From Deltaproteobacteria bacterium (GTDB taxonomy: Bacteria > Desulfobacterota > BSN033 > UBA1163), in the NCBI GenBank assembly GCA_020059605.1, contig JAGVBT010000139.1, positions 1 through 38,270 on the forward strand: a DNA stretch of 38,270 nt. Reading direction: 5' to 3'. The position numbers and the translations under genes are program-made. Shown one piece after another: positions 21,386 to 35,336 of the stretch (its first letter is position 1; the number at the start of each line of letters is the position of its first letter). Under the pieces are notes generated by a model that was not told the origin of the DNA, did not search any database, and saw only the letters and a program-made list of their open reading frames with translations.

Positions 21386-21799
21386 ATGAAAATTGAACTT
21401 ACACGTGAGAAAGTTCACAACGAATTTGCGAAGAAGGTGGAGTTGATCAGCGGACAGAACCTCTTTGCCTGTTATCAATGCGGAAATTGTACGGCCGGTT
21501 GCCCGGTGGCCTTTGCCATGGAGGTCGGTCCTCACGAGGTCATCCGTTATACGCTCCTCGGTCTGGAAGAAGAGGCTCTTGCGGTCAATACCTTCTGGCT
21601 CTGCGCCTCCTGCCTCCAGTGCACTTCGAGGTGTCCCAAGGGGATCGATATCGCCAGAGTGATGGATGCCCTCAGGATGGTCATTCTGAGAAAGAAGGAC
21701 CGGAAGGATCATATCCATGTTTCAGAATTCCAGGAAGGATTTCTGGAAAAGGTTCCGCAGATTGCATTTATCAGTGGTTTCAGGAAATTCCTTTCATAA
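21386..21799 (+). CDS. HdrC-like [4Fe-4S] protein, module 1
   Basis: A 137-residue soluble protein with two cysteine sets: CYQCGNCTAGCP (about residues 30-41) and CASCLQCTSRCP (about 72-83). This is the HdrC arrangement, in which two [4Fe-4S] clusters carry electrons between HdrA and HdrB. It is somewhat shorter than typical HdrC. TAGGAGAACG precedes the ATG. It opens the first of two Hdr modules; hdrB follows after a palindromic repeat. A 105-bp gap separates it from the fumarase beta gene, with a weak promoter-like TTGTCA at 21331. Confidence 0.88.
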   Translation: MKIELTREKVHNEFAKKVELISGQNLFACYQCGNCTAGCPVAFAMEVGPHEVIRYTLLGLEEEALAVNTFWLCASCLQCTSRCPKGIDIARVMDALRMVILRKKDRKDHIHVSEFQEGFLEKVPQIAFISGFRKFLS

Positions 21800-21828
21800 T
21801 AGAAAAGAGTATAGAGTAGGACATTTTA

Positions 21829-21967
21829 AATCCGAAGCACGAAATACGAAATTCGAAACAAGCACGAATGTTCAACATACAAATGATCCAAACAAAGAAA
21901 AACTGTTTTGAATCTTTGATTTAGGATTTGTTTCGGATTTCGATATTCGAATTTCGTATTTTAGGAG
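21829..21967 (+). repeat. Intergenic palindromic repeat, family B copy 1
   Basis: AAATCCGAAGCACGAAATAC and ATTCGAAAC at the left are roughly complementary to GTTTCGGATTTCGATATTCG and AATTTCGTATTTTA at the right, giving a long imperfect hairpin. A second copy lies at 32695-32827. Each copy sits just upstream of an Fe-S protein gene. Confidence 0.75.
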
Positions 21968-21972
21968 TATTT

Positions 21973-22842
21973 ATGGATTATCTCTATTTCCCTGGCTGCA
22001 CCCTCTATACCAAAGCTAAGAATTTTGATCAGACGGCCCGGGACTGTTCCCTTCTCCTCGGATTCCAACTGAAAGAACTTCCGAACTGGACCTGCTGCGG
22101 AGCCACTTTCCCGCTGGCTACCGACAATATCATGGCCCTTCTCCCGCCTTCAAGAATATTGGCGAGAGCGAGGGAGGAAGGGACTACGCTAACTACCCTC
22201 TGTTCCGTCTGCTTCAATGTGATCAAGCGGACGAATCGATTGATTCGGAACGACGGAGACAAGCGGGATACGATCAATAACTTTATGGAGACGAACTACC
22301 AGGGCGACCTCCGTGTCCTTCACTACCTGGAGATCCTGAAACAGGATGTGGGGTTTCCCCGGATACAGGAAAAAATGAAGAAACCCCTGACCGGACTGAA
22401 GGCGGCTCCCTACTATGGATGCATGCTCCTGCGGCCTTTTGAAGAGATGGAGTTCGACGATAAAGAGAAGCCAACCTTGTTTGAAGGGTTCCTGGAGGCC
22501 ATGGGCGCAGAGGCAATCGATTTTCCTTATAAAATCGAATGCTGCGGGTCTTTTCAGTCCGTGGGATCGCCTGAAGTGGCCACCGAATGCGGCTATAAGA
22601 TTCTGGGCTCTGCCGTTAAAAACGGGGCGGAGGTTGTCGTCTCAACCTGCCCGTTGTGCACCTTTAACATCGACCATAAACAGGCCGACATCAAACAGAA
22701 ATATCTGGACTTTAAACCCATTCCGGTGCTCTATTTCACCCAGCTTCTGGGGATCGCCATGGGACTGGATTATCAAACCCTCGGATTCGGGCAAAACTTT
22801 GTGGATCCTTTACCGCTCTTAAAGGGAAAAGGTTTTATCTAA
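21973..22842 (+). CDS. HdrB-like protein with two CCG domains, module 1
   Basis: A 289-residue protein carrying both CCG (cysteine-rich) domains of HdrB: FPGC, then NWTCCGA and CSVC in the first; YYGC, then IECCGSF and CPLC in the second. In HdrB these hold two noncubane [4Fe-4S] clusters that reduce a disulfide. Both sets are complete here. I chose the ATG at 21973, after TTAGGAG; an upstream in-frame start at 21928 would translate part of the repeat. It reads almost directly into the HdrA gene (one base between). The true disulfide or other electron acceptor is unknown, as this organism type usually lacks coenzymes M and B. Confidence 0.9.
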   Translation: MDYLYFPGCTLYTKAKNFDQTARDCSLLLGFQLKELPNWTCCGATFPLATDNIMALLPPSRILARAREEGTTLTTLCSVCFNVIKRTNRLIRNDGDKRDTINNFMETNYQGDLRVLHYLEILKQDVGFPRIQEKMKKPLTGLKAAPYYGCMLLRPFEEMEFDDKEKPTLFEGFLEAMGAEAIDFPYKIECCGSFQSVGSPEVATECGYKILGSAVKNGAEVVVSTCPLCTFNIDHKQADIKQKYLDFKPIPVLYFTQLLGIAMGLDYQTLGFGQNFVDPLPLLKGKGFI

Positions 22843-22843
22843 G

Positions 22844-24154
22844 ATGAAGGAGAATGGGACATTCATCAAAAGGGCGATGGTGATCGGCGGAGGAATTGCC
22901 GGGATCTCCGCCTCCATTGACATCGGAAATGCGGGATATGATGTCATCCTGGTCGAGAAACTTCCCTCCATCGGGGGAAAGATGCTTCAACTCTCCGAGA
23001 CCTTTCCAACGCTCGATTGTGCCCAGTGCACTCTGACTCCCAAGACCGTGGAAACAGGCCAACATCCCCATATTCGGCTGCTTACCCATTCAGAGGTGGA
23101 GGGAGTGGAGGGGAAGGCCGGCGACTTTACGGTGAAGATCCGTAGAAAAGCGGCCTATGTGGACTGGGGAAAATGCACCGGCTGCGGTCTCTGCCAGGAG
23201 AAGTGCCCTTCGAAAAAACCCTCTGAATTTGAGCGGGGCATGGGCACCGGAAAAGCGATCTATACGCTTTCCCCGCAGGCCGTCCCGAACAAACCTGTCA
23301 TCAATCCTTCCGAATGCCGTTATTTTTTGGAGAAGAAATGCAGGGTCTGCGAAAAGGTCTGCCCGGTTGGAGCGATCGACTACGAACAGGAGGACCGTTT
23401 TATAGAAGAGAAGGTGGGAGCTATTATCGCCGCCGTGGGTTTTGACCTGATGCCCATGGAGACGTTCGGAGAATATGGCTACGGGGCAATTCCGGATGTG
23501 ATTGACGGCCTGGCCTTTGAAAGAATTAATTCCGCATCCGGACCGACCACGGGGCAGATCAGAAGACCTTCGGATGGAAAAGTACCTAAAGAAGTCGTCT
23601 TCATCCAGTGCACCGGTTCGAGGGATCCGGAGCGCTATATGCCCTACTGCTCACGGGTCTGCTGTATGTACACGGCTAAGCATGCCCGGCTCTACAAGCA
23701 TAAAGTCCATGACGGACAGGTCTATATCTTTTATATGGATATTCGTTCAACCGGAAAGGGATACGAGGAGTTCATCCAGCAGGGGATGGAAGAGGAGGGA
23801 ATCCTCTATCTCCGTGGAAGGGTTTCCCGGATCTTCAGGGATGGGGAAAAAGTCGCGGTCTGGGGTGTGGATACCTTGACCGGGAAGAAGGTGGAGGTCT
23901 CTGCGGATATGGTCGTCCTGGCCACGGCCATCATTCCCCAGGGAGAGGCAAAGGGGCTGGCCCAAAAATTGAGGATCCATGTCGATGATTACGGGTTCTT
24001 CACAGAGGCCGAGAGAAAACTCAGGCCCGTAGAGACCGATCGGGAAGGGATCTACATCGCGGGATGCGCACAGGGACCGAAGGATATTGCCGATGCCGTG
24101 GCTCATGCCAATGCATCAGCAAGCAAAGTGCAGGCCCTGTTTGCAAAACATTAA
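22844..24154 (+). CDS. HdrA-like flavoprotein, short form, module 1
   Basis: A 436-residue HdrA-type protein resembling QmoA in length. It has an FAD fold at residues 11-39 (AMVIGGGIAGISASIDI), the HdrA cysteine pair FPTLDCAQC (Cys59, Cys62), and two inserted clusters with CTGCGLCQEKCP (111-122) and CRYFLEKKCRVCEKVCP (158-174). It lacks the N-terminal Cys-rich HdrA domain and the C-terminal ferredoxin pair, which appear instead in the next gene. I therefore expect the two proteins to pair as a heterodimer. In Hdr complexes this subunit holds the FAD thought to split electrons between two acceptors; that role is inferred. Confidence 0.9.
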   Translation: MKENGTFIKRAMVIGGGIAGISASIDIGNAGYDVILVEKLPSIGGKMLQLSETFPTLDCAQCTLTPKTVETGQHPHIRLLTHSEVEGVEGKAGDFTVKIRRKAAYVDWGKCTGCGLCQEKCPSKKPSEFERGMGTGKAIYTLSPQAVPNKPVINPSECRYFLEKKCRVCEKVCPVGAIDYEQEDRFIEEKVGAIIAAVGFDLMPMETFGEYGYGAIPDVIDGLAFERINSASGPTTGQIRRPSDGKVPKEVVFIQCTGSRDPERYMPYCSRVCCMYTAKHARLYKHKVHDGQVYIFYMDIRSTGKGYEEFIQQGMEEEGILYLRGRVSRIFRDGEKVAVWGVDTLTGKKVEVSADMVVLATAIIPQGEAKGLAQKLRIHVDDYGFFTEAERKLRPVETDREGIYIAGCAQGPKDIADAVAHANASASKVQALFAKH

Positions 24155-24162
24155 GAATGCCG

Positions 24163-24274
24163 GAGGATAGAGGAGCGGCCTTCGGCCTTGAGGGAAAAGG
24201 CAAAAGAAGAGAGAATTTCCCTTAAGTGAAACGCTCCTCAAGCGGAGCGATCCTCGAACCTTAAGCGAAGCGAT
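24163..24274 (+). repeat. Intergenic repeat, family A copy 2
   Basis: It shares with 19653-19774 the ordered pieces CCTTCGGCCTTGAGG, AAAGGCAAAAGAAGA, CTCCTCAAGCGGAGCGATCC and AAGCGAAGCGATC. The repeat runs right up to the start codon of the long HdrA gene, which has no clear Shine-Dalgarno site of its own. Confidence 0.7.
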
Positions 24275-24275
24275 C

Positions 24276-26225
24276 ATGAAAAGATTGGGTGTTTTTATCT
24301 GCCATTGCGGGGTGAATATCGCCGGCACGGTCGATGTAAAGTCGGTCGCGGAAAAAACGGGGAGGGTTGAAGATGTCGCCCACAGCGCCGACTACATCTA
24401 TATGTGCTCCGAACCCGGGCAACAGATCATCCGGGAGGCCATTCGTGAAAGGGGATTGGAGGGAGTTGTCGTGGCCTGCTGTTCGCCAAGCATGCATGAG
24501 AACACCTTCAGGAAGGCAGTCAAGTCGGAAGGGATGAATCCCTATCTCTGCGAGATCGCCAATATCCGGGAGCAGTGCAGCTGGGTTCACCAGAAGGAGA
24601 AGACGAAGGCCACGGAAAAAGCCGAGGAAATCATCCTGGCAACCCTGGAGAAGGTGAGAGAGAACGAAAAGCTTGAGGCCATTTCGGTCTCCATCAACCG
24701 GAGCGCAGGAGTGATCGGAGGAGGGATTGCCGGGATGACAGCCGCCCTCGATCTGGCAGAGGGGGGCTATGAGGTGCTCCTGATCGAGAAGGAACAGGCC
24801 CTGGGCGGACATATGACCCAACTCTCAAAGACCTTTCCCGATCTCCATCCTGCCCTTCCGGATCTCCTCGCAAAGGCGCGGGAAATTGAGAGGCATCCCA
24901 AAATCGATCTTCACTGTTACTCGGAGATGGAGGACGTAAAGGGATATGTGGGGAATTTCGAACTGACGATCCGGAAAAAAGCGACCTCTGTAGATTGGGG
25001 AAGGTGCAACGGTTGCGGCCTCTGCATCAGGGATTGCCCTGTGGAGTACGTTTCCCCGTTTGAGAGGGGACTGGGAGTCCGAAAGGCCATCGACCTGCTC
25101 TATCCGGGGAGCGTCCCTCAAAAACCAGTGATTCGCCGCGACCATTGCCGGTATTTCCATGACGGGAGTTGCAGAAAATGTGAAGAGGTCTGCCCGGAAA
25201 AGGCCATTCGCTTCGACCAACAGGACGAGCGGATCGGGAAGAAGGTCGGGGCCATTGTCGTGGCAACAGGATTTGAGCTTTATCCCACGGAGCAACTCGG
25301 AGAATACGGCTACGGGGAGATTCCGGATGTGATCGATGGCCTGGCCCTGGAACGGATGTTTTCGGTTGATGGCCCGACTCAGGGGAGAATCATCCGTCCC
25401 TCCGACGGAACGGTGCCGAAGGAGATCGTCTTCATTCAGTGCGTGGCCTCGAGGGACCCGGACCGGTATATGCCTTACTGTTCCCGAATCTGCTGCATGT
25501 ATACGGCCAAACAGGCAAAAATCTACAAGGAGCAGGTCCCGGACGGACAGCCCTATATCTTCTACATGGATATACGGGCGGATGCGAAAGGCTATGAAGA
25601 ATTTTTGCAAAAGACAATTGAGGAAAAAGGGCTTCTCTACCTCAGGGGGCGTGTCTCCAGGGTCTTTCAGGATGATGGGAAAGTCAGGATCTTGGGCGTG
25701 GATACGCTTACGGGGAAGATGGTCGAAGTGGCGGCGGATATGGTCGTCCTGGCCACTGCCATTGTTCCAAGCCAGGGAGTCAAGGACCTGGCCTCCAAAC
25801 TGAGAGCTACCGTCGATCGCCACGGGTTTTTAACGGAGGCGCATATCAAACTCTATCCGGTGGAGAGTTCAACGAAGGGAATCTATCTGGCCGGTTGCGG
25901 TCAGAGTCCCAAAGATATCTCCGATACGGTCTCGCAGGCTTCGGCCACGGCCAGTAAGATCCAGGCCCTCCTTTCGACGGATCAACTCCTTCAGGATCCT
26001 TTGATCGCTTTTGTGGACGAAAATATTTGCAGCGGGTGCGGGATCTGCGTAGAGGTCTGCCCCTATGAAGCAAGGGAGATGAATTCCCGCCGGGGGATCT
26101 CCGTCGTCCATAGCGCACTCTGTCAGGGATGCGGAGCCTGTATTGCGGCTTGCCCAAATTTTGCCTGTGAGTTAAGAAATAGTTCGTCGGTCCAAACCCT
26201 CCGGATGCTGGAGACGTTTGTTTGA
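24276..26225 (+). CDS. HdrA-like flavoprotein, long form, module 1
   Basis: A 649-residue HdrA-type protein. Residues 1-105 form the N-terminal HdrA domain with Cys9, Cys11, Cys44, Cys69/70, Cys92 and Cys101 (VFICHCG, VVACCSPSMHE, YLCEIANIREQC). An FAD fold follows (VIGGGIAGMTAALDL, 146-160), then CNGCGLCIRDCP (244-255), a second inserted cysteine set, and C-terminal ferredoxin motifs CSGCGICVEVCP and CQGCGACIAACP. The HdrA cysteine pair found in the short form is lost: the stretch reads FPDLHPALPD. It thus complements the short form domain for domain and may be the QmoB-like half of a heterodimer. There is no MvhD domain at its C-terminus; mvhD is a separate gene downstream. Confidence 0.9.
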   Translation: MKRLGVFICHCGVNIAGTVDVKSVAEKTGRVEDVAHSADYIYMCSEPGQQIIREAIRERGLEGVVVACCSPSMHENTFRKAVKSEGMNPYLCEIANIREQCSWVHQKEKTKATEKAEEIILATLEKVRENEKLEAISVSINRSAGVIGGGIAGMTAALDLAEGGYEVLLIEKEQALGGHMTQLSKTFPDLHPALPDLLAKAREIERHPKIDLHCYSEMEDVKGYVGNFELTIRKKATSVDWGRCNGCGLCIRDCPVEYVSPFERGLGVRKAIDLLYPGSVPQKPVIRRDHCRYFHDGSCRKCEEVCPEKAIRFDQQDERIGKKVGAIVVATGFELYPTEQLGEYGYGEIPDVIDGLALERMFSVDGPTQGRIIRPSDGTVPKEIVFIQCVASRDPDRYMPYCSRICCMYTAKQAKIYKEQVPDGQPYIFYMDIRADAKGYEEFLQKTIEEKGLLYLRGRVSRVFQDDGKVRILGVDTLTGKMVEVAADMVVLATAIVPSQGVKDLASKLRATVDRHGFLTEAHIKLYPVESSTKGIYLAGCGQSPKDISDTVSQASATASKIQALLSTDQLLQDPLIAFVDENICSGCGICVEVCPYEAREMNSRRGISVVHSALCQGCGACIAACPNFACELRNSSSVQTLRMLETFV

Positions 26226-26230
26226 TCTGT

Positions 26231-26290: not shown

Positions 26291-26310
26291 ATATATCGGA
26301 GGTTATAAAA

Positions 26311-26871
26311 TTGGAAACGACAACCAGTGTCGAAAAGATGGATTCCTCCTTTCTAGAGGAAGTTTCTAAACGGAGCGGGGAGAAACTCAGTCTCTGTTAT
26401 CAATGCCTCAAGTGCACGGCAGGTTGTCCCACCGCCCCGTATATGGACATCCGGCCCAACAGCATCATCCGGATGATCCAGATGGGGATGAAAAGGGAAG
26501 TCCTGGAAAGCAGCGCCATTTGGTTTTGCGTTTACTGCCAGACTTGTGGCACCCGTTGTCCGAATGAGATCCACATCGGGGTTCTCATGGATGCCTTGAG
26601 AGAGATGGCCATGGAAGAGGGGGTCCACGCAAAAGAGAAGAATATCCATCTCTTCCATGAGGCTTTTATCCAGAGTGTCCGGAGAGGGGGAAGAGCCCAT
26701 GAGGTAACCATGTTAATGGACTACATGCTCCGGAGTAGAGACTTAATGAAAGGTTCTCTCATCCCCGGCGTGAAACTTTTCTTGAAGGGCAAATTCCCTC
26801 TGCTCCCCAGCTTTGTCAAGGGGAAGGGAGAGATCAAAAGAATATTTGAAAAATGCACAAAGGCGAAATAA
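26311..26871 (+). CDS. HdrC-like [4Fe-4S] protein, module 2
   Basis: A 186-residue protein with the HdrC cysteine sets CYQCLKCTAGCP (about residues 30-41) and CVYCQTCGTRCP (about 72-83). It is longer than the module 1 HdrC and closer to usual family length. I chose the TTG start because GGAGG lies eight bases upstream; the first ATG (26338) has no such site and would remove nine residues. It begins the second Hdr module and would pass electrons between the fused HdrA and HdrB2. The two HdrC proteins share motif spacing, which suggests duplication of the module. Confidence 0.9.
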   Translation: METTTSVEKMDSSFLEEVSKRSGEKLSLCYQCLKCTAGCPTAPYMDIRPNSIIRMIQMGMKREVLESSAIWFCVYCQTCGTRCPNEIHIGVLMDALREMAMEEGVHAKEKNIHLFHEAFIQSVRRGGRAHEVTMLMDYMLRSRDLMKGSLIPGVKLFLKGKFPLLPSFVKGKGEIKRIFEKCTKAK

Positions 26872-26875
26872 CGAA

Positions 26876-26947: not shown

Positions 26948-26963
26948 CCTTGGAGGTTTTATA

Positions 26964-27809
26964 ATGAGATTTTCTTATTTTCCGGGGTGTACGGATCATT
27001 CTTCATCTTATGAATACGGTCGGTCCACGGAGGCTGTCCTCGAAGCATTGGGTGTGGACCTGGTGGAGATCGAAGATTGGAACTGTTGCGGAGCGGCGGC
27101 AACTCATAGTCTCAATCGTCTCCTTTCTCTCTGCCTTCCGGCCAGGAATATCTCCAAGGCGCAGTCTGCGCAGGCAGGGCCTCTGGTTGTTCCCTGTGCC
27201 GGATGTTTTAGCTATTTGAAAAGGGCCGAGTACGCTCTGAAACATGACGAAGCGGAGCGAAAGGAGATCGAAGAGATCGTTGGATTTACCTACGAATCTT
27301 CGCTTGAAATATTGGCGTTGATGGATGTGATTCTGAATCGGATTGGGCTGGAGAAAATACAGGAAAAGGTGAAGAAGCCTTTGAAGGGATTGAAGCCTGT
27401 CTGTTACTATGGATGTGCTCTGGTTCGGCATCCCAAGATCACTCAATTGGATGATCCGGAGAATCCACAATATCTGGATCGTTTAATGAAGAGCCTCGGA
27501 GCCGAGCCAGTGGATTGGTCATATAAGACGGATTGTTGTGGTGCAGACCTGGCCATGACCTATGCAGACGTGGTTCAGAAACTGGTAGGGAAAATTGTAT
27601 CCATGGCCAAGGAAGCAGGAGCTCATTGTATCGTGACCTCCTGTGGTCTCTGCCAAATGAATCTGGAGATGAGGCAGGACATGGACCTCCCCATTTTTTA
27701 TTTTACCGAACTGATGGGCGTGGCCTTTGATGTTGAAAAAAGAGAGAGCTGGTGGAAGAAGCATTTGATTTCTCCCAAAGGGTTGCTGGAATCGCTGGGC
27801 TTGGTATAG
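26964..27809 (+). CDS. HdrB-like protein with two CCG domains, module 2
   Basis: A 281-residue protein with two complete CCG domains: FPGC, DWNCCGAA, CAGC in the first and YYGC, TDCCGAD, CGLC in the second. All cysteines expected to hold noncubane [4Fe-4S] clusters are present. It is a paralog of the HdrB at 21973-22842; both match the DsrK/HdrB/TfrB superfamily. GGAGG precedes the ATG. The fused HdrA gene follows 33 bp later. Since the FrdB-like protein downstream lacks the CCG domain that TfrB of methanogens carries, one of these HdrB proteins could take that role. Confidence 0.9.
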   Translation: MRFSYFPGCTDHSSSYEYGRSTEAVLEALGVDLVEIEDWNCCGAAATHSLNRLLSLCLPARNISKAQSAQAGPLVVPCAGCFSYLKRAEYALKHDEAERKEIEEIVGFTYESSLEILALMDVILNRIGLEKIQEKVKKPLKGLKPVCYYGCALVRHPKITQLDDPENPQYLDRLMKSLGAEPVDWSYKTDCCGADLAMTYADVVQKLVGKIVSMAKEAGAHCIVTSCGLCQMNLEMRQDMDLPIFYFTELMGVAFDVEKRESWWKKHLISPKGLLESLGLV

Positions 27810-27842: not shown

Positions 27843-30800
27843 ATGGAGCTGAAAAAGATGAAAGGTGACAAAAGTTCGGCGTTGGTCGTTGGCGCGGGGA
27901 TTGCGGGGATGCAGTCGGCGCTGCTCCTGGCAGAAATGGGGAGGAGAGTATTTCTCCTGGAACAGGGCCCTGCCATCGGGGGCTATTTCCCTCTCCTCGA
28001 CAAGACCTTCCCAACGAATTCGTGCGGCGTCTGTTTTATGAGTCCCACGCCTCCCGCATTCTGCCCGATCTACGAATGTCATCTGCACGACAATATCGAA
28101 CTATTACCGTATTCGGAAGTCAAGAAGGTGCAGGGGACAGAAGGGGATTTCAGGGTCTCCATCGTCCGCAAACCCCGATGTGTGGACCCCCAACGGTGCA
28201 CCCTCTGCGAAGCCTGCATCAAAGTCTGTCCGGTGGAGGTGGAGAGGGAATTCGGAGGCGGCCTGGAGAAGAGAAAGGCGATTTATCTTCCTTTTCCTCA
28301 GGCGATTCCTCACAGTCTTGTCATTGACCCCAAGACCTGCACTCGATGCGGGGAATGCGTCAAGGTGTGCGCTCCCGGAGCGATCGATCTCGACATGAAA
28401 GAGGAAGAAGAGGAGATCGGGGCAGGGGCCATCCTCCTCGGATTCGGATTTGAACCTTTCTGGGCGCAGAAGAAAGGGGAGTACGGTTTCGGCCGTCACG
28501 AGAATGTGTTGACCAGCATCCAGTTCGAAAGGCTCATCTCCACATCCAGCCCTACGCAGGGATTTCCGGTCCGGATCTCGGACGGGAAGAAGATGGAGCG
28601 AATCGCCTTCATCCAGTGCGTGGGATCGAGAGACCCCTCCTGCGGACAGGATCACTGTTCCACGATCTGCTGCATGTATGCCACCAAGCAGGCCATGATC
28701 GCCAAAGAGAGGGCTCCCCAGTTGAACGTCACGTTCTTTTATATGGATATCCGGCCCATGGGGAAGGATTACGAGCGGTATTATGAGAGGGCGAAGGCCG
28801 AATACGGGATTGAATATATTCGAAGCGCCATTTCCAGCGTCAAGGAGCTTCAGCAAACGAAGAACCTTCTTATCACCTATGTGAAAGAGGATGGGACCTT
28901 TGAAGAGAGGGAATTTGATAGCGTCATCCTCTCCCTGGGATTCACTCCTCCACAGGGCATTCAAGATCTGGCCAAAGGGATGGGCTTGCGGTTAAATCGG
29001 CAGGGTTTTTGCGAGACCGATGAGTTTTCGCCAGGGCATACTTCAGTCAAAGGAATTTTCGTCGGCGGGGCCTTTCGTGGCCCCAGGGATATCCCGGAGA
29101 CGGTCGTTGAAGGCTCAAGCGCGGCAGCCTCTGCTGCTTCGTTTCTTCATCCGAATTCCGGTTCTCTTCCAAAAAGGGAATATCCTGCGGAGGGAGCCCT
29201 GGCCGATGAAATTCCGAAGATCGGGGTTTTCGTCTGCCATTGCGGTGGAGAATTGAAGGAAACCCTATCCATTGCCGAACTGGTCGAAAAGACAAAGCAG
29301 CTGGGAGAGGTTTGCCATGTGGAAGAGATGGGGTTGGCCTGCCTTCCCGAGGACCTCAACCAGATCAAGATGAAGATCGGAGAGCACGGGATTAACCGGA
29401 TCGTAATGGCGGGTTGTTCCCATCGGGAGATTCGTAAAACGATGGAAGAGATGGCAAGGGGGATTGGGTTCAATCCCTATCTCATCGAGTATGCCAATAT
29501 CCGGGAGCAATGCGCCTTTGTCCATAGAGATCATCCAGAATTGGCTACGGAAAAGGCAATGGCATTAATCAGGATGGCCGTGGAAAGGGCCAAATGGATC
29601 CAGCCCATCCGGAAAGGGAGTCACAAGGTTGAAAAGCAGGGATTGGTCATAGGCGGAGGGGCGGCAGGCATGACCGCTTCTCTCCGGTTGGCCGAACAGG
29701 GTTACGAGGTCTATCTGATCGAAAAGGGAAAGGAGCTTGGAGGAAATCTGAGGGATTCCTTCTATACGTTGAAGGGATCCGATCCCCAGTCTTTTCTGAA
29801 GGATCTCATTCAAAAGGTGAAGAACCAATCTTCCATCCATCCCTATTTCGAGACGGAGATCACCGGTTTTGAAAAGACAAATGGCCAATACAAAACGAAG
29901 ATCCGCCATCCGGGCGGGGAGGAGAGCCTCGACCATGGAGCTCTCATCCTGGCCACCGGCGGAAAGGAAGTGACCCCAAGAGAATATCTCTACGGGGAGG
30001 ATTCCCGGGTCATCACACAGAGACAACTGGAAAAGATGATCCATCTCAAGGATGAAGGATTGAAAGAAATCCGTTCGGCGGTCATGATTCAGTGCGTGGG
30101 GTCAAGGGACGAGGAACACCCTTATTGCAGTCGTATCTGTTGCGGTCATGCGGTGAAGAATGCCCTCAAATTGAAGGAGCAAGACCCTGCCGTCCAGGTT
30201 TATATCCTTTACCGGGATGTGAGAACATACGGATTCTATGAAACGTATTACCACGAGGCCCGGGGCAAAGGAGTGATTTTCATCCGGTTTGATCCGGAGA
30301 AGAAGCCGAAGGTGACCCTCGAAAATGGGGCGATTCGTGTCTCGGTTTTTGACCCCGCCATGGGAAGCGAAGTAAGCCTTTCTGCGGACCGCCTTGTCCT
30401 CAGCGCCGGCATCGAACCCCATGATAACCGGGACCTGGCGCGCCTGTTCGGTGTCGATCTTAATCCGGATGGTTTTTTTATGGAGGCCAATCCGAAATCC
30501 GCTCCCCTCGATTCGGTGGACCGGGGAAAATTCTTCTGCGGCCTCTGCCATTCACCCAATACGATCGAGGATTCCATCTCCCAGGGCAATGCAGCTGCGG
30601 CCCGGACCGGAGCGCTCCTTTCCGGGGGCGAGGTGGAGGAGAAGCCCTATTTGGCCTATGTGATCAAGAGGCTCTGCTGCGGGTGCGGACTCTGCGTGGC
30701 GGTCTGCCCCTACGGAGCAAGGGTGCTCAATGAAGAGGAAGTCAAGGCAGAGGTGCAGGAAGCGCTCTGCCAGGGATGCGGGAACTGTGTTGTCGCCTGC

Positions 30801-30875
30801 CGCAATGCGGCCTCACAGCAACGCAACTTTGAAAAGGGGTTGAATCTGAACGTTCTCAATGCAGCGATTGACTGA
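27843..30875 (+). CDS. Double HdrA-like flavoprotein (short and long forms fused)
   Basis: This 1010-residue protein repeats in one chain the two separate HdrA genes of module 1. Residues 1 to about 440 match the short form: FAD fold (VVGAGIAGMQSALLLA, 15-30), cysteine group with Cys61, Cys64, Cys74 and Cys79, and clusters at 119-130 (CTLCEACIKVCP) and 166-176 (CTRCGECVKVC). From about 456 it matches the long form: the N-terminal HdrA domain (VFVCHCGGEL, CSHREIRKT, NIREQC), a second FAD fold near 598 (VIGGGAAGMTASLRLA), no HdrA cysteine pair, and C-terminal ferredoxin motifs near 943-985 (CCGCGLCVAVCP, CQGCGNCVVAC). Two FADs and several clusters in one polypeptide fit a pseudo-dimer. It is the core of module 2. 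Confidence 0.9.
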   Translation: MELKKMKGDKSSALVVGAGIAGMQSALLLAEMGRRVFLLEQGPAIGGYFPLLDKTFPTNSCGVCFMSPTPPAFCPIYECHLHDNIELLPYSEVKKVQGTEGDFRVSIVRKPRCVDPQRCTLCEACIKVCPVEVEREFGGGLEKRKAIYLPFPQAIPHSLVIDPKTCTRCGECVKVCAPGAIDLDMKEEEEEIGAGAILLGFGFEPFWAQKKGEYGFGRHENVLTSIQFERLISTSSPTQGFPVRISDGKKMERIAFIQCVGSRDPSCGQDHCSTICCMYATKQAMIAKERAPQLNVTFFYMDIRPMGKDYERYYERAKAEYGIEYIRSAISSVKELQQTKNLLITYVKEDGTFEEREFDSVILSLGFTPPQGIQDLAKGMGLRLNRQGFCETDEFSPGHTSVKGIFVGGAFRGPRDIPETVVEGSSAAASAASFLHPNSGSLPKREYPAEGALADEIPKIGVFVCHCGGELKETLSIAELVEKTKQLGEVCHVEEMGLACLPEDLNQIKMKIGEHGINRIVMAGCSHREIRKTMEEMARGIGFNPYLIEYANIREQCAFVHRDHPELATEKAMALIRMAVERAKWIQPIRKGSHKVEKQGLVIGGGAAGMTASLRLAEQGYEVYLIEKGKELGGNLRDSFYTLKGSDPQSFLKDLIQKVKNQSSIHPYFETEITGFEKTNGQYKTKIRHPGGEESLDHGALILATGGKEVTPREYLYGEDSRVITQRQLEKMIHLKDEGLKEIRSAVMIQCVGSRDEEHPYCSRICCGHAVKNALKLKEQDPAVQVYILYRDVRTYGFYETYYHEARGKGVIFIRFDPEKKPKVTLENGAIRVSVFDPAMGSEVSLSADRLVLSAGIEPHDNRDLARLFGVDLNPDGFFMEANPKSAPLDSVDRGKFFCGLCHSPNTIEDSISQGNAAAARTGALLSGGEVEEKPYLAYVIKRLCCGCGLCVAVCPYGARVLNEEEVKAEVQEALCQGCGNCVVACRNAASQQRNFEKGLNLNVLNAAID

Positions 30876-30884
30876 CAAAAAAAA

Positions 30885-30958: not shown

Positions 30959-30976
30959 GGAAGACGGAGGTAAGAT

Positions 30977-31399
30977 ATGTCTGAATTTGAACCGAGAATC
31001 GTTGCCTTTCTTTGTCACTGGTGCACCTACACCGGGGCGGATCTTGCGGGGACCACCCGGCAGCAATACCCTCCCAATATCCGCGTCATCCACCTGATGT
31101 GCTCAGGGGCGGTCGATTCGATTTATGTGCTAAAGGCGCTGATCGACGGTGCGGATGGAGTCTTGATCGGGGGATGCCACCCCGGAGACTGCCATTATCA
31201 GACCGGGAATTACAAAGCTCGGAGAAGAGTGGCCATTCTGAAGGGCATTCTGACCCAGATGGGGTTTACCGAAGATCGCATCTTGTTGAAATGGATCAGC
31301 GCCAGCGAAGGGAAACTTTTCGCCGATACGGTGACAAAGATGACCGATGATTTGAGGAAAATGGGGCCCAATCCCATGAAACAGTTGTGGAATGCGTAA
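30977..31399 (+). CDS. mvhD: MvhD-like [2Fe-2S] electron transfer protein
   Basis: A 140-residue protein of the MvhD/FrhD family. It has FLCHWCTYTGADLAG (Cys13, Cys16), LMCSGAVD (Cys42) and GGCHPGDCHYQTGN (Cys67, Cys72), the cysteines that carry a [2Fe-2S] cluster. In methanogens MvhD connects the hydrogenase to HdrA; in Qmo it is fused to QmoB. Here no hydrogenase subunit is next to it. The following gene is FdhB-like, so MvhD probably passes electrons between that protein and HdrA. A good GGAGG lies upstream of the ATG. One mvhD gene seems to serve both Hdr modules. Confidence 0.93.
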   Translation: MSEFEPRIVAFLCHWCTYTGADLAGTTRQQYPPNIRVIHLMCSGAVDSIYVLKALIDGADGVLIGGCHPGDCHYQTGNYKARRRVAILKGILTQMGFTEDRILLKWISASEGKLFADTVTKMTDDLRKMGPNPMKQLWNA

Positions 31400-31409
31400 C
31401 CTCTGCTTT

Positions 31410-31500
31410 CCCTCCCCCTTGATGGGGGAGGGGGAGGGTGGGGGTGAAAACGACCTACGCCCCCACCTTGATCCTCCCCCACAAATGGGAGGGAGGAGAT
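31410..31500 (+). repeat. G/C-run palindrome, family E
   Basis: A G-rich run (GGGGGAGGGTGGGGGTG, about 31429-31445) faces CGCCCCCACC and ATCCTCCCCCAC (about 31459-31482). Similar CCCTCTCCC/GGGAGAGGG palindromes occur at 33616-33638 and 38215-38237, so I group them loosely as one family. It lies between mvhD and the FdhB-like gene. Confidence 0.5.
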
Positions 31501-31541
31501 GCTGAGGGTGATTTTATAATAGGAAAGGAGAATTTCCAAAG

Positions 31542-32690
31542 ATGGGAAAACAGACAGTCTTGAAAGTATCTGAGGGAAAGACGGAGGAGGCCATAAGAGA
31601 TTTTCTTAAATCCCTCTTGAAAGGGGGAGTGATTGAGGCCCTCCTTGTTCCCAAGAGGCTTCCTTCCGGGGATGGGTTTGCACAAACCTTGATCCACGAT
31701 CCTGAGAAGATGGATGGCGCTTGCGCTCTTTCTCTAACCATGCCGGTTCAATCCGCAAGGGTGGCCTCCCATCTTTCCGTTAAAAATTTGAACAAGAGGA
31801 TCGCAGCCGTGTTGAAGCCCTGCGAAATCAGGGCTGTCGTGGAGTTGACTAAATTTCTTCAGGTCAAGCTGGACCATCTCTTGCTCATTGGCGTCGACTG
31901 CCCCGGGACGTTTGAGGTTGCCGACTATTCGAAGATGATACAGGAGGGAAAAGAAGGCGGGAAACTGGAAGGAGAGATTCTCAAGGGTATGGAAAGGGGA
32001 GAAGCGGTTTCCCCGGAAGGATACGGCTTCCGGCCTGCCTGCCAGATGTGTGAATATCCGACTCCAACGGCCGATATTCATATTAAGCTCTTCGGTTATA
32101 AGACGGAGGAAGAAGTTGGACTGGAGATCGGAGAAAAACTGGAAAAAGAGATGGAAGAGAAGGGCCTCGTCTCGTATGCGGGGGATGGACCTTCATCAAG
32201 AAGAGAGGTCGTAGGCAAAGTGGTAGCGGCAAGGGAGAAGAAGAGGGACGAAGCTTATCAAGAATTCCGGGGAGTCGTCAAAGACCTTCAATCCTTCCTG
32301 GACCGGTTTTCTACCTGTATCCGCTGCCACAACTGCATGGTGGCCTGCCCGATCTGCTACTGCAAGGAGTGTGTCTTCCGAACGGCCATCTTTGAACATG
32401 AAGGCGATCAATTTTTAAGATGGGCGGACCGCAAGGGCGGAATCCGGATGCCCACCGATACCCTCATCTTTCACCTCATCCGGATGGCCCATATGGTAAC
32501 TTCCTGCATCGGTTGCGGACTCTGTGACAGCGCGTGCCCGAGCCGGTTGCCGGTCGCCACCCTTTTCCGGAGCGTGGGGGATAAGATTCAGAAGATGTTC
32601 GGCTATGTTCCGGGAAGGGACGTCAACGAGGTTCCCCCTGTGGCCACGTTTAAAGAAGACGAATTGAAAATCGAATCGGGAGCCCTTTAA
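31542..32690 (+). CDS. FdhB/FrhB-like Fe-S flavoprotein
   Basis: A 382-residue protein of the coenzyme F420 hydrogenase/formate dehydrogenase beta family. The FrhB-type region includes AAVLKPCEIRAVVEL and LIGVDCPGTFE. It is followed by CIRCHNCMVACPICYCKEC and, 60 residues on, CIGCGLCDSACP, giving two ferredoxin-like clusters plus extra cysteines. In related complexes this subunit binds flavin and exchanges electrons with formate dehydrogenase, F420 or NAD(P)H. No FdhA catalytic subunit lies in the window, so its redox partner is unknown. Position directly between mvhD and frdB supports a role as electron entry or exit for the Hdr-fumarate reductase assembly. AAAGGAG precedes the ATG. Confidence 0.85.
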   Translation: MGKQTVLKVSEGKTEEAIRDFLKSLLKGGVIEALLVPKRLPSGDGFAQTLIHDPEKMDGACALSLTMPVQSARVASHLSVKNLNKRIAAVLKPCEIRAVVELTKFLQVKLDHLLLIGVDCPGTFEVADYSKMIQEGKEGGKLEGEILKGMERGEAVSPEGYGFRPACQMCEYPTPTADIHIKLFGYKTEEEVGLEIGEKLEKEMEEKGLVSYAGDGPSSRREVVGKVVAAREKKRDEAYQEFRGVVKDLQSFLDRFSTCIRCHNCMVACPICYCKECVFRTAIFEHEGDQFLRWADRKGGIRMPTDTLIFHLIRMAHMVTSCIGCGLCDSACPSRLPVATLFRSVGDKIQKMFGYVPGRDVNEVPPVATFKEDELKIESGAL

Positions 32691-32694
32691 CCGA

Positions 32695-32827
32695 TGAAAT
32701 CCGAAGCACGAAATCCGAAATACGAAACAAATTCAAAATTGCAAATGTTCAAAACAGTTTTGGTCATTTGAACTTTAGTAATTGGAATTTGTTTCGAATT
32801 TCGATATTCGAATTTCGAATTTTTAAG
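32695..32827 (+). repeat. Intergenic palindromic repeat, family B copy 2
   Basis: AAATCCGAAGCACGAAATCC at the left and TTGTTTCGAATTTCGATATT then CGAATTTCGAATTTTT at the right repeat the ends of the copy at 21829-21967, while the middle differs. The arms are complementary, so it can fold into a long hairpin just before the FrdB-like gene. Confidence 0.75.
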
Positions 32828-32850
32828 GTATGCAGGATTAGGAGGATGTT

Positions 32851-33591
32851 ATGGAAGTCGAGGCTACTAAGAAGGAAGAGCTGGTTCCCATCTTCATCAT
32901 GGGAAAGAGGTACGAAGTCCCCGCTTCCTTAACCATTCAGAAGGCGATGGAGTATGCCGGATATCAACTGATCCGGGGATGCGGGTGCCGCGGAGGAATT
33001 TGCGGGGCCTGCGGGACCGTCTACCGGTTTCCAGGAACCTATAAGATCGAGGTCGGGTTGGCCTGTCAAACGGTTGTCGAGCCTAACATGTATCTGACTC
33101 AGATTCCTTTCTTTCCGGCGACCAAGAGCGTCTACGAGATGGAGAAGATCACGCCTTCGGTCGAAACACTGGTGAAACATTATCCTGAACTCCTCCGGTG
33201 TCTCCAGTGCAATACCTGCACCAAGTCCTGCCCGATGGACATCGAGGTGATGGATTATATCGCTGCGGGAATGAGAGGGGATATCGCCCGATTGGCGGAA
33301 CTCTCGTTTGACTGCGTGATGTGCGGTTTATGCACATCGAGATGCCCTGCAGAGCTTTGCCAGTACAATATTGCGATTTTAGGAAGGCGCCTCTACGGAA
33401 AATACGTGGCGCCCAGGGCTGAACACCTTGCCTCCATGGTTCAGGAGGTGGAGAAAGGAAAATATGAGCAAATGCTCAGAGGGTTGATGGATACGGATGA
33501 AGAGACCCTCAAGAACCTTTATACCAGCAGAGAGATCGAACCAGAACAGGCCGATGAGAACTGGACACCCAAAGATAAAACATACCTATAA
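32851..33591 (+). CDS. FrdB/TfrB-like iron-sulfur subunit
   Basis: A 246-residue protein with an N-terminal plant-type [2Fe-2S] domain (CGCRGGICGAC, Cys46, Cys51, Cys54 and Cys72 in GLACQT) and a C-terminal part with CLQCNTCTKSCP (117-128) and CVMCGLCTSRCP (155-166). Fumarate reductase B subunits have one [2Fe-2S], one [4Fe-4S] and one [3Fe-4S]; here both C-terminal sets have four cysteines, so two [4Fe-4S] clusters are more likely. It lacks the CCG domain of methanogen TfrB. It is followed by the flavoprotein FrdA2, forming an FrdAB pair without membrane anchors. AGGAGG precedes the ATG. Confidence 0.9.
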   Translation: MEVEATKKEELVPIFIMGKRYEVPASLTIQKAMEYAGYQLIRGCGCRGGICGACGTVYRFPGTYKIEVGLACQTVVEPNMYLTQIPFFPATKSVYEMEKITPSVETLVKHYPELLRCLQCNTCTKSCPMDIEVMDYIAAGMRGDIARLAELSFDCVMCGLCTSRCPAELCQYNIAILGRRLYGKYVAPRAEHLASMVQEVEKGKYEQMLRGLMDTDEETLKNLYTSREIEPEQADENWTPKDKTYL

Positions 33592-33615
33592 CAAACATAG
33601 CACCCCTCGATCGCT

Positions 33616-33638
33616 CCCTCTCCCTTCGTGGGAGAGGG
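33616..33638 (+). repeat. Palindrome between frdB-like and frdA2 genes, family E
   Basis: CCCTCTCCC-TTCGT-GGGAGAGGG is a perfect nine-pair hairpin, followed by ATGGGGTGAGGG. The tail of this unit leads into the ribosome site of frdA2. A similar unit ends the window at 38215-38270, including GAGGTGAGGG. Confidence 0.75.
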
Positions 33639-33662
33639 ATGGGGTGAGGGGGCGGAGGTTTT

Positions 33663-35336
33663 ATGCCTTACACAAGCGAGTTGAAGCAGCTGATCAAGAA
33701 GGTTGAGGCGACGCGGGCCGCCAGAGTGGAAGCCAAGAGAAGAGGGGAAGAGTTTCCTTTGCTTACCTTGAAAGAGAGAGAAGAACGGCTAAAAAAGTAT
33801 CATCCCGATTTCAAAGAAGGTTCCCGGAAGGAGATTCGTGTCGGTCCGAATAAGGGTTATTCGATCTCTCCGGAAATCGTTCATATTCTCGAAGCCAAAA
33901 GCCGTGTCAACCCTGATGTGATTGATCTGAATAAAATCGCCTATGAAACCGATGTCCTTATTCTCGGCGGAGGAGGCGCGGGAACAGCCGCTGCGTTGAC
34001 CGCGCAGGAAAATGGAGTCCAAGTCCTGATCGCCACCAAATTGAGGCATGGGGACGCCAATACGATGATGGCGGAGGGCGGCATCCAGGGAGCCACCAAG
34101 GGGACGAAAGACTCTCCCTATTACCACTACCTCGATGTTTTGGGGGGAGGTCATTTCAAAAATATTCCGGAGCTTGCCTATACCCTTGTCACGGAGGCTC
34201 CGAAGGTCCTGGCATGGCTGGAAAATTTGGGGTGTATGCTGACGAAATTGCCGGAAGGGCAGCTGAAGTCACTTCATGGGGGCGGAACCTGCCGGAAGCG
34301 GATGCATTACGCCGCCGACATTACCGGCGCCGAGATCATGAGAACCCTGAGGGATGAGGCAAGAAACCGCCCAGAGGACATTAAGGTTCTGGAATTTTCT
34401 CCGGCCGTGGAACTGATCTTGAATGAGCACGGCCATTGCGCGGGTGCGGTTCTTTATAATCTGGAAACGGAAGAATATTTCGTCGTCAAGGCAAAAGCGG
34501 TCATCATGGCCACAGGAGGTTCTGGAAGACTCCATATCCAGGGGTTCATGACCACCAACCATTACGGTGCGACCGGGGACGGCCTGATTATGGGTTATCG
34601 GGCAGGGGTAAGGGTATGTTTTCTCCATACCGTCCAGTATCATCCGACAGGGGCGGTATTCCCGGAACAGGCAGAGGGTCTCCTGATCACAGAGAAGTTC
34701 CGAGGGGCGGGCGCGAATGTCCTCAACATTGATGGAGAACAATTCGTCAACGAGCGGGAGCCGAGGGATGTGGAATCCGCCTCGTTCATTCGAGAATGTG
34801 ATGAGGTTGGAAAAGGAATACCGACGCCGACAGGGAAAGTGGGCATCTGGCTTGACTCGCCGATGATCGACATCCTCATGGGGGAAGGGGCGGTGAAGAG
34901 GGAATTCCCGGGCAAATTTATTCTCTTTAAGCGATTTGGAATCGATATTTCAAAGGAACCGATGCTGGTTTATCCAACACTTCATTACCAGAACGGGGGC
35001 TTGGAATATAACAGCCTTTGCGAGACATCCGTCCCTGGGTTTTTCGCTACCGGAGAAGTATCGGGCGGAGTCCACGGAGAGAATCGTTTGATGGGGAATT
35101 CGCTTCTTGATGTCACGGTCTTTGGCAGGATTGCAGGAGTGAGCGCGTCACGGTATGCGAAAGAGAAGGCAAAAGAAGGAACATTGAACCTGGACCATGT
35201 CCGGAGATACCACAAGGAATTGGAAGAAGCCGGGATTGTTACCGATCGGGTTGCTCCCATGCTTCTTCCCGACTACTCCAATCCCAACGTGAGAGAGCGT
35301 CAGCTCACCGCCCATTATTTAGGAACGATCCGGTAA
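33663..35336 (+). CDS. Fumarate reductase/succinate dehydrogenase-type flavoprotein, paralog 2
   Basis: A 557-residue flavoprotein very similar along its full length to the one at 11303-12973, including the unusual N-terminal extension (MPYTSELKQLIKKVEATRAA and on to about residue 90). The FAD fold is VLILGGGGAGTAAALTA. Active-site motifs YHPTGAVFPEQAEG, TEKFRGAGA, EPRDVESAS, TLHYQNGG and ENRLMGNSL are present. The covalent-FAD His is again absent (DANTMMAEGG). It directly follows the FrdB-like gene, with GGAGG before the ATG, and so is the natural catalytic subunit of the Hdr-linked assembly, reducing fumarate or oxidising succinate. Direction cannot be read from sequence. Confidence 0.92.
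   Translation: MPYTSELKQLIKKVEATRAARVEAKRRGEEFPLLTLKEREERLKKYHPDFKEGSRKEIRVGPNKGYSISPEIVHILEAKSRVNPDVIDLNKIAYETDVLILGGGGAGTAAALTAQENGVQVLIATKLRHGDANTMMAEGGIQGATKGTKDSPYYHYLDVLGGGHFKNIPELAYTLVTEAPKVLAWLENLGCMLTKLPEGQLKSLHGGGTCRKRMHYAADITGAEIMRTLRDEARNRPEDIKVLEFSPAVELILNEHGHCAGAVLYNLETEEYFVVKAKAVIMATGGSGRLHIQGFMTTNHYGATGDGLIMGYRAGVRVCFLHTVQYHPTGAVFPEQAEGLLITEKFRGAGANVLNIDGEQFVNEREPRDVESASFIRECDEVGKGIPTPTGKVGIWLDSPMIDILMGEGAVKREFPGKFILFKRFGIDISKEPMLVYPTLHYQNGGLEYNSLCETSVPGFFATGEVSGGVHGENRLMGNSLLDVTVFGRIAGVSASRYAKEKAKEGTLNLDHVRRYHKELEEAGIVTDRVAPMLLPDYSNPNVRERQLTAHYLGTIR

Follow-up and report, generated by a model that had tools for sequence, protein, structure and literature searches.

Classically, quinol links fumarate reduction to the membrane, and the class E or 8-methylmenaquinol:fumarate reductase (SdhABE) is likewise quinol-linked and membrane-associated. 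The TfrAB of methanogens is soluble, with TfrB fused to an HdrB part. Hdr proteins have further been linked to fumarate reductase in bacteria. Passages of PMC7282089, which cites a 2019 preprint, describe a 'succinate operon' of Pseudoclostridium thermosuccinogenes with FlxABCD-HdrABC and fumarate reductase, for which coupling to ferredoxin reduction was proposed. According to sections of PMC6315080 and PMC11636981, tubeworm symbionts and Thioflavicoccus have rTCA clusters in which tfrAB stands alongside flxABCD-hdrABC and korABCD, and direct electron transfer was proposed. Sections of PMC11636981 also report expression of tfrAB in the tubeworm symbionts that is unlike that of their Hdr-Flx cluster, a mismatch that would count against an Hdr-coupled reading. 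The partial text of a 2018 review of flavin-based bifurcation (PMC5861303) mentions fumarate reductase twice only, both times in reference-list titles.

The window, a stretch of 38,270 nucleotides from a deltaproteobacterial MAG, contains a cluster of eleven ORFs at 21386-35336, all on one strand and present at their listed coordinates (Table 1). The gene order is HdrC-B-A-A, HdrC-B-tandem HdrA, MvhD, FdhB-like, FrdB and FrdA. Family searches identified two HdrC, two HdrB, two HdrA and one tandem HdrA, FlpD/MvhD, an FrhB_FdhB_C protein, an FrdB-like ferredoxin protein and an FrdA-like flavoprotein, thereby recovering the two Hdr modules, mvhD, FdhB-like gene and FrdB/FrdA pair of the original prediction. 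Its metabolic neighbours (both fumarase subunits, malate dehydrogenase and a PycB/OadA/5S protein) were all placed upstream, while a thioesterase and an adenine deaminase-like protein, and no FrdC/FrdD, lie 3' of FrdA. The claim that the cluster lacks both a membrane anchor and a hydrogenase also held: the ORF list and family searches revealed no anchor and no hydrogenase genes in the cluster, and a hydropathy-type scan (19-residue values) found no convincing membrane segment in any cluster protein, the sole value >1.6 being a cysteine-rich ferredoxin stretch of HdrA2. Promoter and terminator scans yielded about the same as shuffled sequence, so that the operon structure rests on gene order and strand. 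The true start of HdrB1 is probably ~15 codons inside the listed one, as most relatives align from residue 14-20.

Table 1. Genes of the cluster and its upstream context in the window.
Feature	Coordinates	Strand	Description
PycB/OadA/5S (context)	15916..17403	+	pyruvate carboxylase B / 5S-like carboxyltransferase; family search
Malate dehydrogenase (context)	18655..19635	+	family search
Fumarase alpha (context)	19790..20629	+	family search
Fumarase beta (context)	20723..21280	+	family search
HdrC1	21386..21799	+	137 aa; two C..C..C...CP clusters
HdrB1	21928..22842	+	listed start TTG; two full CCG motifs
HdrA1a	22844..24154	+	436 aa; HdrA core; C-C-CC cluster; Lys equivalent to K409 of 5odc
HdrA1b	24276..26225	+	649 aa; full HdrA with C-terminal ferredoxin domain
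HdrC2	26311..26871	+	186 aa; two C..C..C...CP clusters
HdrB2	26964..27809	+	281 aa; two full CCG motifs
HdrA2	27843..30875	+	1010 aa; tandem HdrA; C-C-CC cluster and Lys in both halves; without GltD-like insert
MvhD (FlpD)	30977..31399	+	140 aa; family models
FdhB-like	31542..32690	+	FrhB_FdhB_C and two 4Fe-4S motifs; homologous over nearly its full length to the FdhB of archaeal Fdh-Hdr complexes
FrdB	32851..33591	+	246 aa; 2Fe-2S motif and two four-Cys motifs
FrdA	33663..35336	+	557 aa; N-terminal extension of ~93 residues; covalent-FAD His absent; residues of the dicarboxylate site retained

The conserved-synteny check that accompanied the original prediction showed that the block recurs in relatives. 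In four other genomes (G140, over regions L035 and L036; L038; L039; L044) the complete set can be followed, from the two Hdr modules through MvhD and FdhB to FrdB and FrdA. MAGs labelled Caldithrix, Chloroflexota, Gemmatimonadota and Methylomirabilis contain genes of the same kinds, and the order MvhD-FdhB-(HdrC-HdrB)-FrdB-FrdA is repeated across several phyla in MAGs whose FrdA is 63-95% identical. Across 297 genomes of the phylum, an FdhB-like gene adjoins FrdA at 33 of 89 FrdA places, and 33 of the 63 stronger FdhB places, the window among them, have FrdA within 2.4 kb on the same strand (16 weaker rows of 79 were left out of this count). This adjacency exceeds chance. In 76 named loci (80 less the paralogue loci L085, L097, L118 and L126), FrdA has FrdB nearby in 73, HdrB in 56, HdrA in 39 and MvhD in 39, the last figure including a weakly similar, longer ORF farther from FrdA in L095 and L116. 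The three FrdB misses are L073 and L111, with almost no upstream DNA, and L082, with 1.4 kb upstream and no FrdB match. The comparative evidence is drawn entirely from MAGs; one record titled chromosome (L064) carries FrdBA with only an FdhB fragment. FumA and FumB each lie near FrdA in 10 of the 76 loci, none of FdhB type, within the 10 kb examined; fumarase of the FdhB type lies beyond this distance, at the head of the clusters in L038, L039 and L044. Succinyl-CoA ligase beta is found 3' of FrdA in L051, L060 and L122, and after one opposite ORF in L055.

The inputs that accompany this FrdA family are diverse. The FdhB-type set stands beside FrdA in 22 of the 76 loci, HdrCBA with MvhD in 11, Flx-Hdr in 4 and HdrCB only in 22; a cytochrome/NrfD/molybdoenzyme set is found in a further type (8/76). 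Flx NADH-binding subunits were found in L120, L131, L132, L134 and L051, and, among the loci with HdrCBA and MvhD, hydrogenase genes follow FrdA in L091 (VhuG and VhuA) and L071 (VhuG). The 22 HdrB-only loci, mostly with HdrC, have no HdrA in the DNA examined (some end at a contig edge), and because of these and the eight cytochrome/NrfD/molybdoenzyme loci, HdrA is not obligatory for the family. The FrdA tree requires 5 changes of the FdhB label, of which starred branches force at least 4, with L064 (FdhB fragment), L066 and L084 (HdrCBA-MvhD sets not fully visible) left unlabelled. In 9 of the 10 regions retrieved for comparison, blocks of two long HdrA, MvhD and FdhB-like genes with one HdrB set lacked FrdAB. 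As such blocks occur without FrdAB, the FdhB-type input is a module of general use, with FrdAB as an attachment to it.

Judged by its residues, FrdA is predicted to be a dicarboxylate reductase. Its fold matches FrdA/SdhA (best TM 0.63), and the dicarboxylate-site residues H327, E344, R368, H441 and R475, mapped to E. coli FrdA, are invariant in 44/44 aligned relatives; T343 is conserved in 42, with S in the other 2. The covalent-FAD His position is occupied by Asn133, with Asn in 44/44. Of the 44 rows in this alignment, 42 come from the 80 named loci; L110 and L134 (one in-frame stop each) and L106 (match to residues 1-495 only) were dropped from alignment and tree, and the remaining loci were not chosen. 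L-aspartate oxidase (NadB) was considered and rejected on the substrate residue and on a score of 258.2 bits (cut-off 452.75): the substrate-selecting Glu of NadB (E. coli E121) corresponds by eye to position 207 of FrdA, which is G in 41/44 and A in 3/44. All 88 FrdB ORFs carry two C..C..C...C motifs and lack the three-Cys (3Fe-4S) site of canonical complex II, judged by Cys motifs; the 88 include duplicates, as regions L035-L054 (n=20) partly overlap the 80 named loci (e.g. G140:C95 and JAGXTA010000095, equated because length and number agree). Apparent FrdB fusions in L076, L078 and L096 were dismissed as ORF-extension artefacts; the added N-terminal residues are unlike MvhD or HdrB and gave no BLAST match, and tblastn showed that MvhD is a separate gene in L076 and L096, as is HdrB in L078.

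All four HdrA units of the cluster keep the C-C-CC cluster cysteines and the equivalent of Lys 409 of 5odc HdrA, features associated with bifurcation. The GltD-like NAD(P)H insert, absent from the cluster HdrAs, is present in FdhB-type blocks without FrdAB. Residues 11-367 of the FdhB-like protein align to the 9t1s chain named formate dehydrogenase (coenzyme F420) (E 3.4e-34). The window cluster encodes no FdhA, and none acting in trans was found among the two strongest molybdoenzyme matches of the MAG, which adjoin ORFs that by eye are Nuo subunits (2 of 13 matches looked at). F420 was ruled out as donor by CofD, found in 0/10 genus genomes, the MAG included, and in 10/14 controls. Family searches identified no NADH-binding Flx subunits among the window cluster proteins. 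The 93.7%-complete MAG has no [NiFe] hydrogenase over the cut-off and no [FeFe] hydrogenase; a 22.6-bit sub-cut-off [NiFe] match on C141, with NuoA-D-like ORFs (by eye) around it, was read as NuoD. Some genus relatives carry hydrogenases ([NiFe] over cut-off in 4/10, [FeFe] in 1/10).

The observations made here are of gene content, gene order, conservation and residues. The cluster probably encodes an Hdr-coupled, electron-bifurcating fumarate reductase. Electrons from a low-potential donor would pass through the FdhB-like protein and MvhD to the HdrA flavins, where they would be split: one branch would lead through the HdrA ferredoxin domains to ferredoxin, and the other through HdrC, HdrB, FrdB and FrdA to fumarate supplied by malate dehydrogenase and fumarase. 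The net reaction would convert donor, fumarate and oxidised ferredoxin into succinate and reduced ferredoxin, conserving energy without a membrane complex. The balance tips slightly towards a cytoplasmic FrdAB fed by Hdr modules instead of quinol, with HdrA splitting electrons between ferredoxin and fumarate. Against it count the relatives whose FrdBA is without HdrA or joined to cytochrome/NrfD sets, L064 with its FdhB fragment, the FdhB-type blocks that lack FrdAB and, on the donor side, the missing GltD-like insert, FdhA and CofD. Several findings strengthen the soluble, Hdr-coupled enzyme of the original prediction: conserved synteny, intact catalytic residues, a signature of noncovalent FAD, the lack of anchors and the recurrent combination with various Hdr inputs; a single stable supercomplex, bifurcation, donor and direction stay at the level of prediction. 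The fullest version is held more tentatively, at somewhat short of an even chance: a soluble machine with two Hdr modules, four HdrA flavin units and an FdhB-like entry that would bifurcate to ferredoxin and fumarate with no need for F420, hydrogenase, DsrC or an NADH-binding domain of Flx or GltD type. It would belong to a modular family whose common FrdAB runs on H2, NADH, FdhB or cytochrome inputs.

Other arrangements would account for parts of these data. FrdAB could be joined to Hdr without bifurcation. The Hdr proteins would then be a plain wire that carries electrons to fumarate, as a sink, from ferredoxin, formate or some other donor. The 22 relatives without HdrA indicate that an Hdr-Frd link can exist without the bifurcating flavoprotein; nevertheless, four HdrA units with the bifurcation-associated features would be superfluous in a plain wire, and 2-oxoglutarate:ferredoxin oxidoreductase (Kor) genes between Hdr and Frd in two relatives (L052, L049) suggest a ferredoxin branch, which makes this arrangement unlikely. 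It is quite unlikely that the operon encodes two enzymes, one an Hdr/MvhD/FdhB complex that has an acceptor of its own and the other a FrdAB that works independently with a different partner. Each half does occur apart from the other, the first without FrdAB and FrdBA without HdrA or with cytochrome/NrfD modules. However, the recurrence of one gene order in MAGs of several phyla at the FrdA identities given above, the position of HdrB directly before FrdB in 4 of the 22 FdhB-type and most HdrCB-only loci, and the convergence of several Hdr input types on the same FrdBA argue for a connection.

A thiol-linked enzyme resembling archaeal thiol:fumarate reductase, in which HdrB would oxidise a protein or small dithiol and FrdA reduce fumarate, fits the intact CCG motifs of HdrB1 and HdrB2 and an HdrC-HdrB-FrdB-FrdA core that resembles a split TfrB. 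We regard it as improbable, given a FrdA score of 328.7 bits against the curated TfrA model (cut-off 718) and the absence of DsrA from the MAG and of DsrC from the MAG and 6 of the 9 other genus genomes (DsrC is present in 3/10), which bears on these thiol partners only; DsrC is rejected as the partner in this organism. The original prediction also allowed the same complex to run in reverse, as a succinate oxidase. It would then oxidise succinate together with reduced ferredoxin and pass the electrons by confurcation to NAD+, formate or a different acceptor, as in the syntrophic oxidation of propionate. Methylmalonyl-CoA mutase-family genes in the MAG speak for this, and the adjoining 5S, malate dehydrogenase and fumarase genes are compatible with either direction. 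Reversal would, however, be uphill by tens of kJ per mol on textbook potentials, and noncovalent FAD favours fumarate reduction, as known from E. coli FrdA His mutants. The genome has two other SdhA-like genes with the RSHS motif of covalent-FAD enzymes, each adjoining an ORF that by eye is SdhB and one also a cytochrome-b-like ORF at a contig edge. The reverse reaction is accordingly rated very improbable.

If a soluble bifurcating complex can use fumarate as its high-potential acceptor, anaerobes that form succinate or propionate could generate reduced ferredoxin from fumarate in their cytoplasm, and the energy balance of fermentation, of syntrophy and of carbon fixation by the reductive TCA cycle would change. 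With the Hdr-linked design, fumarate could become an energy source for cells that use no respiratory chain, and the recurring H2, NADH and FdhB-type inputs on one FrdAB family offer concrete complexes for purification.

Among known systems, canonical membrane complex II shares the catalytic dicarboxylate residues with the window and differs in its covalent-FAD His, three-Cys FrdB site and FrdC/FrdD anchor. SdhABE likewise has an HdrB-like partner of FrdAB, but HdrB1 and HdrB2 score 175.1 and 156.9 bits, under the 500-bit SdhE cut-off. Methanogen TfrAB combines an FrdA-type catalytic subunit with HdrB-type CCG chemistry, as the window does; it has a fused TfrB, no HdrA or MvhD and CoM/CoB thiols, whereas the window keeps a 246-aa FrdB and a separate HdrB. 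The methanogen FdhAB-HdrABC and MvhADG-HdrABC complexes (5odc, 7bkb, 8rvu) resemble the window in HdrA and FdhB by sequence and in HdrB, HdrC and MvhD by family models; there, following the partial text of PMC5861303, the acceptor is CoM-S-S-CoB and FdhA or MvhAG is present, unlike the window, which is without FdhA. The Mvh-Hdr-TFR cluster of the Cloacimonadota member Celaenobacter, as outlined in parts of PMC8542988, brings hydrogenase, Hdr, thiol:fumarate reductase and fumarase together and resembles the type III loci L071 and L091; it is H2-fed, whereas the window has no hydrogenase. On the passages of PMC7282089, the P. thermosuccinogenes operon also unites fumarase, Hdr and fumarate reductase; by description, not by sequence, it differs in its NADH-oxidising Flx, the window having no Flx, two Hdr modules and an FdhB-like protein. 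The tubeworm symbiont clusters, as far as the published passages describe them, similarly intersperse Hdr genes with fumarate reductase genes, and L049 has the same gene kinds; compared again by description and not by sequence, they differ from the window in a Flx-type input and a carbon fixation setting. The original prediction knew of no described complex of this exact composition; the general Hdr-fumarate reductase idea is already in print for Flx-Hdr in passages of PMC7282089 and PMC6315080. The FdhB-type cluster is thus a new variant of a coupling that has been proposed, as yet unproven, for Flx-Hdr and fumarate reductase.

The gene cluster in the window is real, conserved and informative. 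HdrC1, HdrB1, HdrA1a, HdrA1b, HdrC2, HdrB2, a tandem HdrA2, MvhD, an FdhB-like protein, FrdB and FrdA follow one another on one strand and are preceded by malate dehydrogenase and both fumarase subunits, as identified with NCBIfam and Pfam. The ORFs found in the window, one entire contig of 38,270 bases from a 4.38 Mb MAG (93.7% complete), agree with the coordinates of the original prediction. Among the matches listed (best 80 of 570), the closest named relatives carry the MAG labels Deltaproteobacteria and Syntrophaceae.

FrdA comprises 557 residues. In the predicted structure, an N-terminal extra part of ~93 residues, mostly helical and modelled with high confidence, is followed by the FrdA/NadB flavoprotein fold, and the top Foldseek match is E. 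coli FrdA (TM 0.63, 31% identity). Pairwise comparison showed retention of the carboxylate-binding and proton-transfer residues of E. coli FrdA; five of these catalytic residues are invariant in the alignment of 44 relatives, and all 44 have Asn at the position to which FAD is covalently bound in E. coli. FrdA scored under the curated cut-off of every NCBIfam model among the 25 listed of 48 matched. FrdB has two four-Cys motifs, both present in 88/88 ORFs, and a 2Fe-2S motif, whose strict pattern occurs in 81; in E. coli FrdB one of the two corresponding motifs is a 3Fe-4S site with three cysteines.

Window-type FrdA was found at E <= 1e-120 in 79, and the FdhB-like protein at E <= 1e-25 in 71, of 297 genomes drawn from the phylum. 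The FdhB-FrdA adjacency, which the original prediction had read from a single contig, recurs in this sample: FrdA lies within 2.4 kb on the same strand at 33 of the 63 FdhB places used, and FdhB adjoins 33 of 89 FrdA places, paralogues counted in. Of the best 80 of 570 named FrdA loci, four are paralogues and 76 were classified: 22 are of the FdhB type, 11 of the HdrCBA-MvhD type (type III), four of the Flx-Hdr type (type IV) and eight of the cytochrome/NrfD type, while 22 have HdrCB only, three HdrA without MvhD, one MvhD only at a contig edge, and five were not assigned. Within the same best 80 of 570, the FdhB type makes up 16 of the 49 loci with 9 kb or more of DNA upstream, and its MAG labels include Syntrophaceae, Deltaproteobacteria, Caldithrix, Chloroflexota, Gemmatimonadota, Methylomirabilis, Thermodesulfobacteriota and others. 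Of the 22 FdhB-type loci, 14 show more than 5 kb of HdrA DNA; the others show less of it, often because the contig or examined stretch ends.

On an FrdA tree of 44 rows built with a quick method, six partner labels require 11 changes versus 24.7 for shuffles, or 10 versus 22.8 with three uncertain rows (L064, L066, L084) unlabelled; in both counts the FdhB label changes five times, at least four of them forced by starred branches. These changes mean that the same FrdAB met several Hdr inputs, or repeatedly kept and lost them. In the two type III loci examined, VhuG follows FrdA (L071, L091), as does VhuA in L091, and other type III loci have ORFs of similar size at that place. Type IV loci place NADH-binding AsrB/HydG-like and AsrA/HydB-like subunits, identified from L051, between MvhD and FrdB. 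The predicted electron donors are H2 for type III and NADH for type IV. Genes for 2-oxoglutarate:ferredoxin oxidoreductase lie between Hdr and Frd in L049 and L052, and succinyl-CoA ligase beta lies 3' of FrdA in L051, L060 and L122 and further on in L055, with the alpha subunit confirmed in L051 and L060. As far as the contigs reach, the same FrdBA stands near genes for a 159-aa FeS protein, a multihaem cytochrome-like protein, NrfD, a TtrB-like protein and a molybdoenzyme in L040, L041, L043, L069, L072, L073, L075, L079, L081, L088 and L092; this arrangement is possibly a membrane-linked version.

Ten regions with FdhB away from FrdA were taken. Nine (L146-L150, L152-L155; three of them short contigs) hold two HdrA, MvhD and FdhB with FrdAB absent, and each has one HdrB place, except that none is visible in L149, a cut region. 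The tenth, L151, has a cluster of the window type on a contig that breaks off directly after FdhB, with FrdA on another contig of that genome. FrdA at E of 1e-120 is absent from eight of the ten genomes. Since the Frd-free blocks have one HdrB set and clusters of the window type have two HdrCB sets (4/4 complete relatives), we read the FdhB-type cluster as the probable sum of an HdrA/MvhD/FdhB/HdrCB block and an HdrCB-FrdBA core, the latter being the part that stands alone in the HdrCB-only loci. Several Frd-free blocks adjoin ORFs that by eye resemble response regulators.

The C-C-CC cluster and Lys are retained in all four HdrA units of the window and align with C386, C399, C403, C404 and K409 of 5odc, residues important for bifurcation; HdrB1 and HdrB2 each keep two CCG motifs. 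Residues 11-367 of the FdhB-like protein align with FdhB in an entry for an archaeal formate dehydrogenase, and FdhB of 7bkb and 8rvu aligns similarly; in these complexes electrons pass from FdhB through MvhD to HdrA. A GltD-like NAD(P)H domain is inserted in the long HdrA of both Frd-free blocks tested (L146, L147) and in that of the Gemmatimonadota locus L106, whose cluster also has FdhB-like, FrdB and FrdA genes. A sequence search found no such domain in window HdrA2 and no Fer4_20 match for HdrA1a or HdrA1b, which closes this route of NAD(P)H entry to the window cluster.

Coordinates of the window cluster and associated features
Locus	Coordinates	Feature
Window	21386-35336 (+)	Hdr-MvhD-FdhB-like-FrdBA cluster
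Window	8778-10010	CaiB-type CoA-transferase
Window	11303-12973	Second FrdA, 71% identical, no FrdB adjoining
Window	13656-15032	MmgE/PrpD-family protein
Window	15049-15774	Cys-rich 241-aa protein between PrpD and 5S, no NCBIfam match
L071 (type III)	L071:6434-7393	VhuG; Mvh-type [NiFe], directly 3' of FrdA, HdrCBA-MvhD-FrdBA cluster
L091 (type III)	L091:11700-14118	VhuG, VhuA; as for L071
L106	L106:1585-6018	HdrA of 1477 aa with GltD-like insert
L135	G000:C121:3000-18000	SdhA-like and SdhB-like ORFs near ORFs resembling citrate synthase and aconitase (by first residues); 15 kb without a recognised anchor gene

No [NiFe] hydrogenase over cut-off, [FeFe] hydrogenase, DsrA, DsrC or CofD was found in the 93.7%-complete MAG. 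It contains four methylmalonyl-CoA mutase-family matches and 13 molybdopterin-oxidoreductase matches, the two best of which sit with Nuo-like ORFs (by eye), and two further SdhA-like genes, each with an adjoining SdhB-like ORF (by eye). The second FrdA of the window may act on another dicarboxylate. FrdA-paralogue/PrpD pairs also occur in L035, L085, L118 and L126, with PrpD at greater distance in L097, and the Cys-rich protein, a putative DUF1847 member, is conserved in L035, L097 and L118.

In the proposed mechanism, electrons would enter through the FdhB-like protein, and fumarate reduction would be coupled to the reduction of ferredoxin. Textbook potentials are approximately +30 mV for fumarate/succinate, -320 mV for NAD, -430 mV for formate and -420 to -500 mV for ferredoxin. 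This direction would be favoured because electron transfer from NADH or formate to fumarate can release enough energy to drive the reduction of ferredoxin and still leave some 30 to 90 kJ per mol; the same potentials disfavour the reverse. The electron donor is the weakest step of this proposal.

The original prediction knew of no described complex of this exact composition. This stands for the FdhB variant joined to fumarate reductase, of which a limited full-text search found no description in the portions of papers available, although Flx-Hdr had already been proposed, in PMC6315080 and PMC11636981, to feed thiol:fumarate reductase (TFR). PMC11636981 also states that tfrAB expression did not track the pattern of its cluster. 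Related arrangements appear in PMC8542988, where one cluster holds Mvh, Hdr and TFR, and in PMC10553843, where Seep-SRB1g is said to have two HdrABC copies side by side whose function is unknown. Bifurcation by the window cluster is putative, and its gene set is a variant of a kind already proposed.
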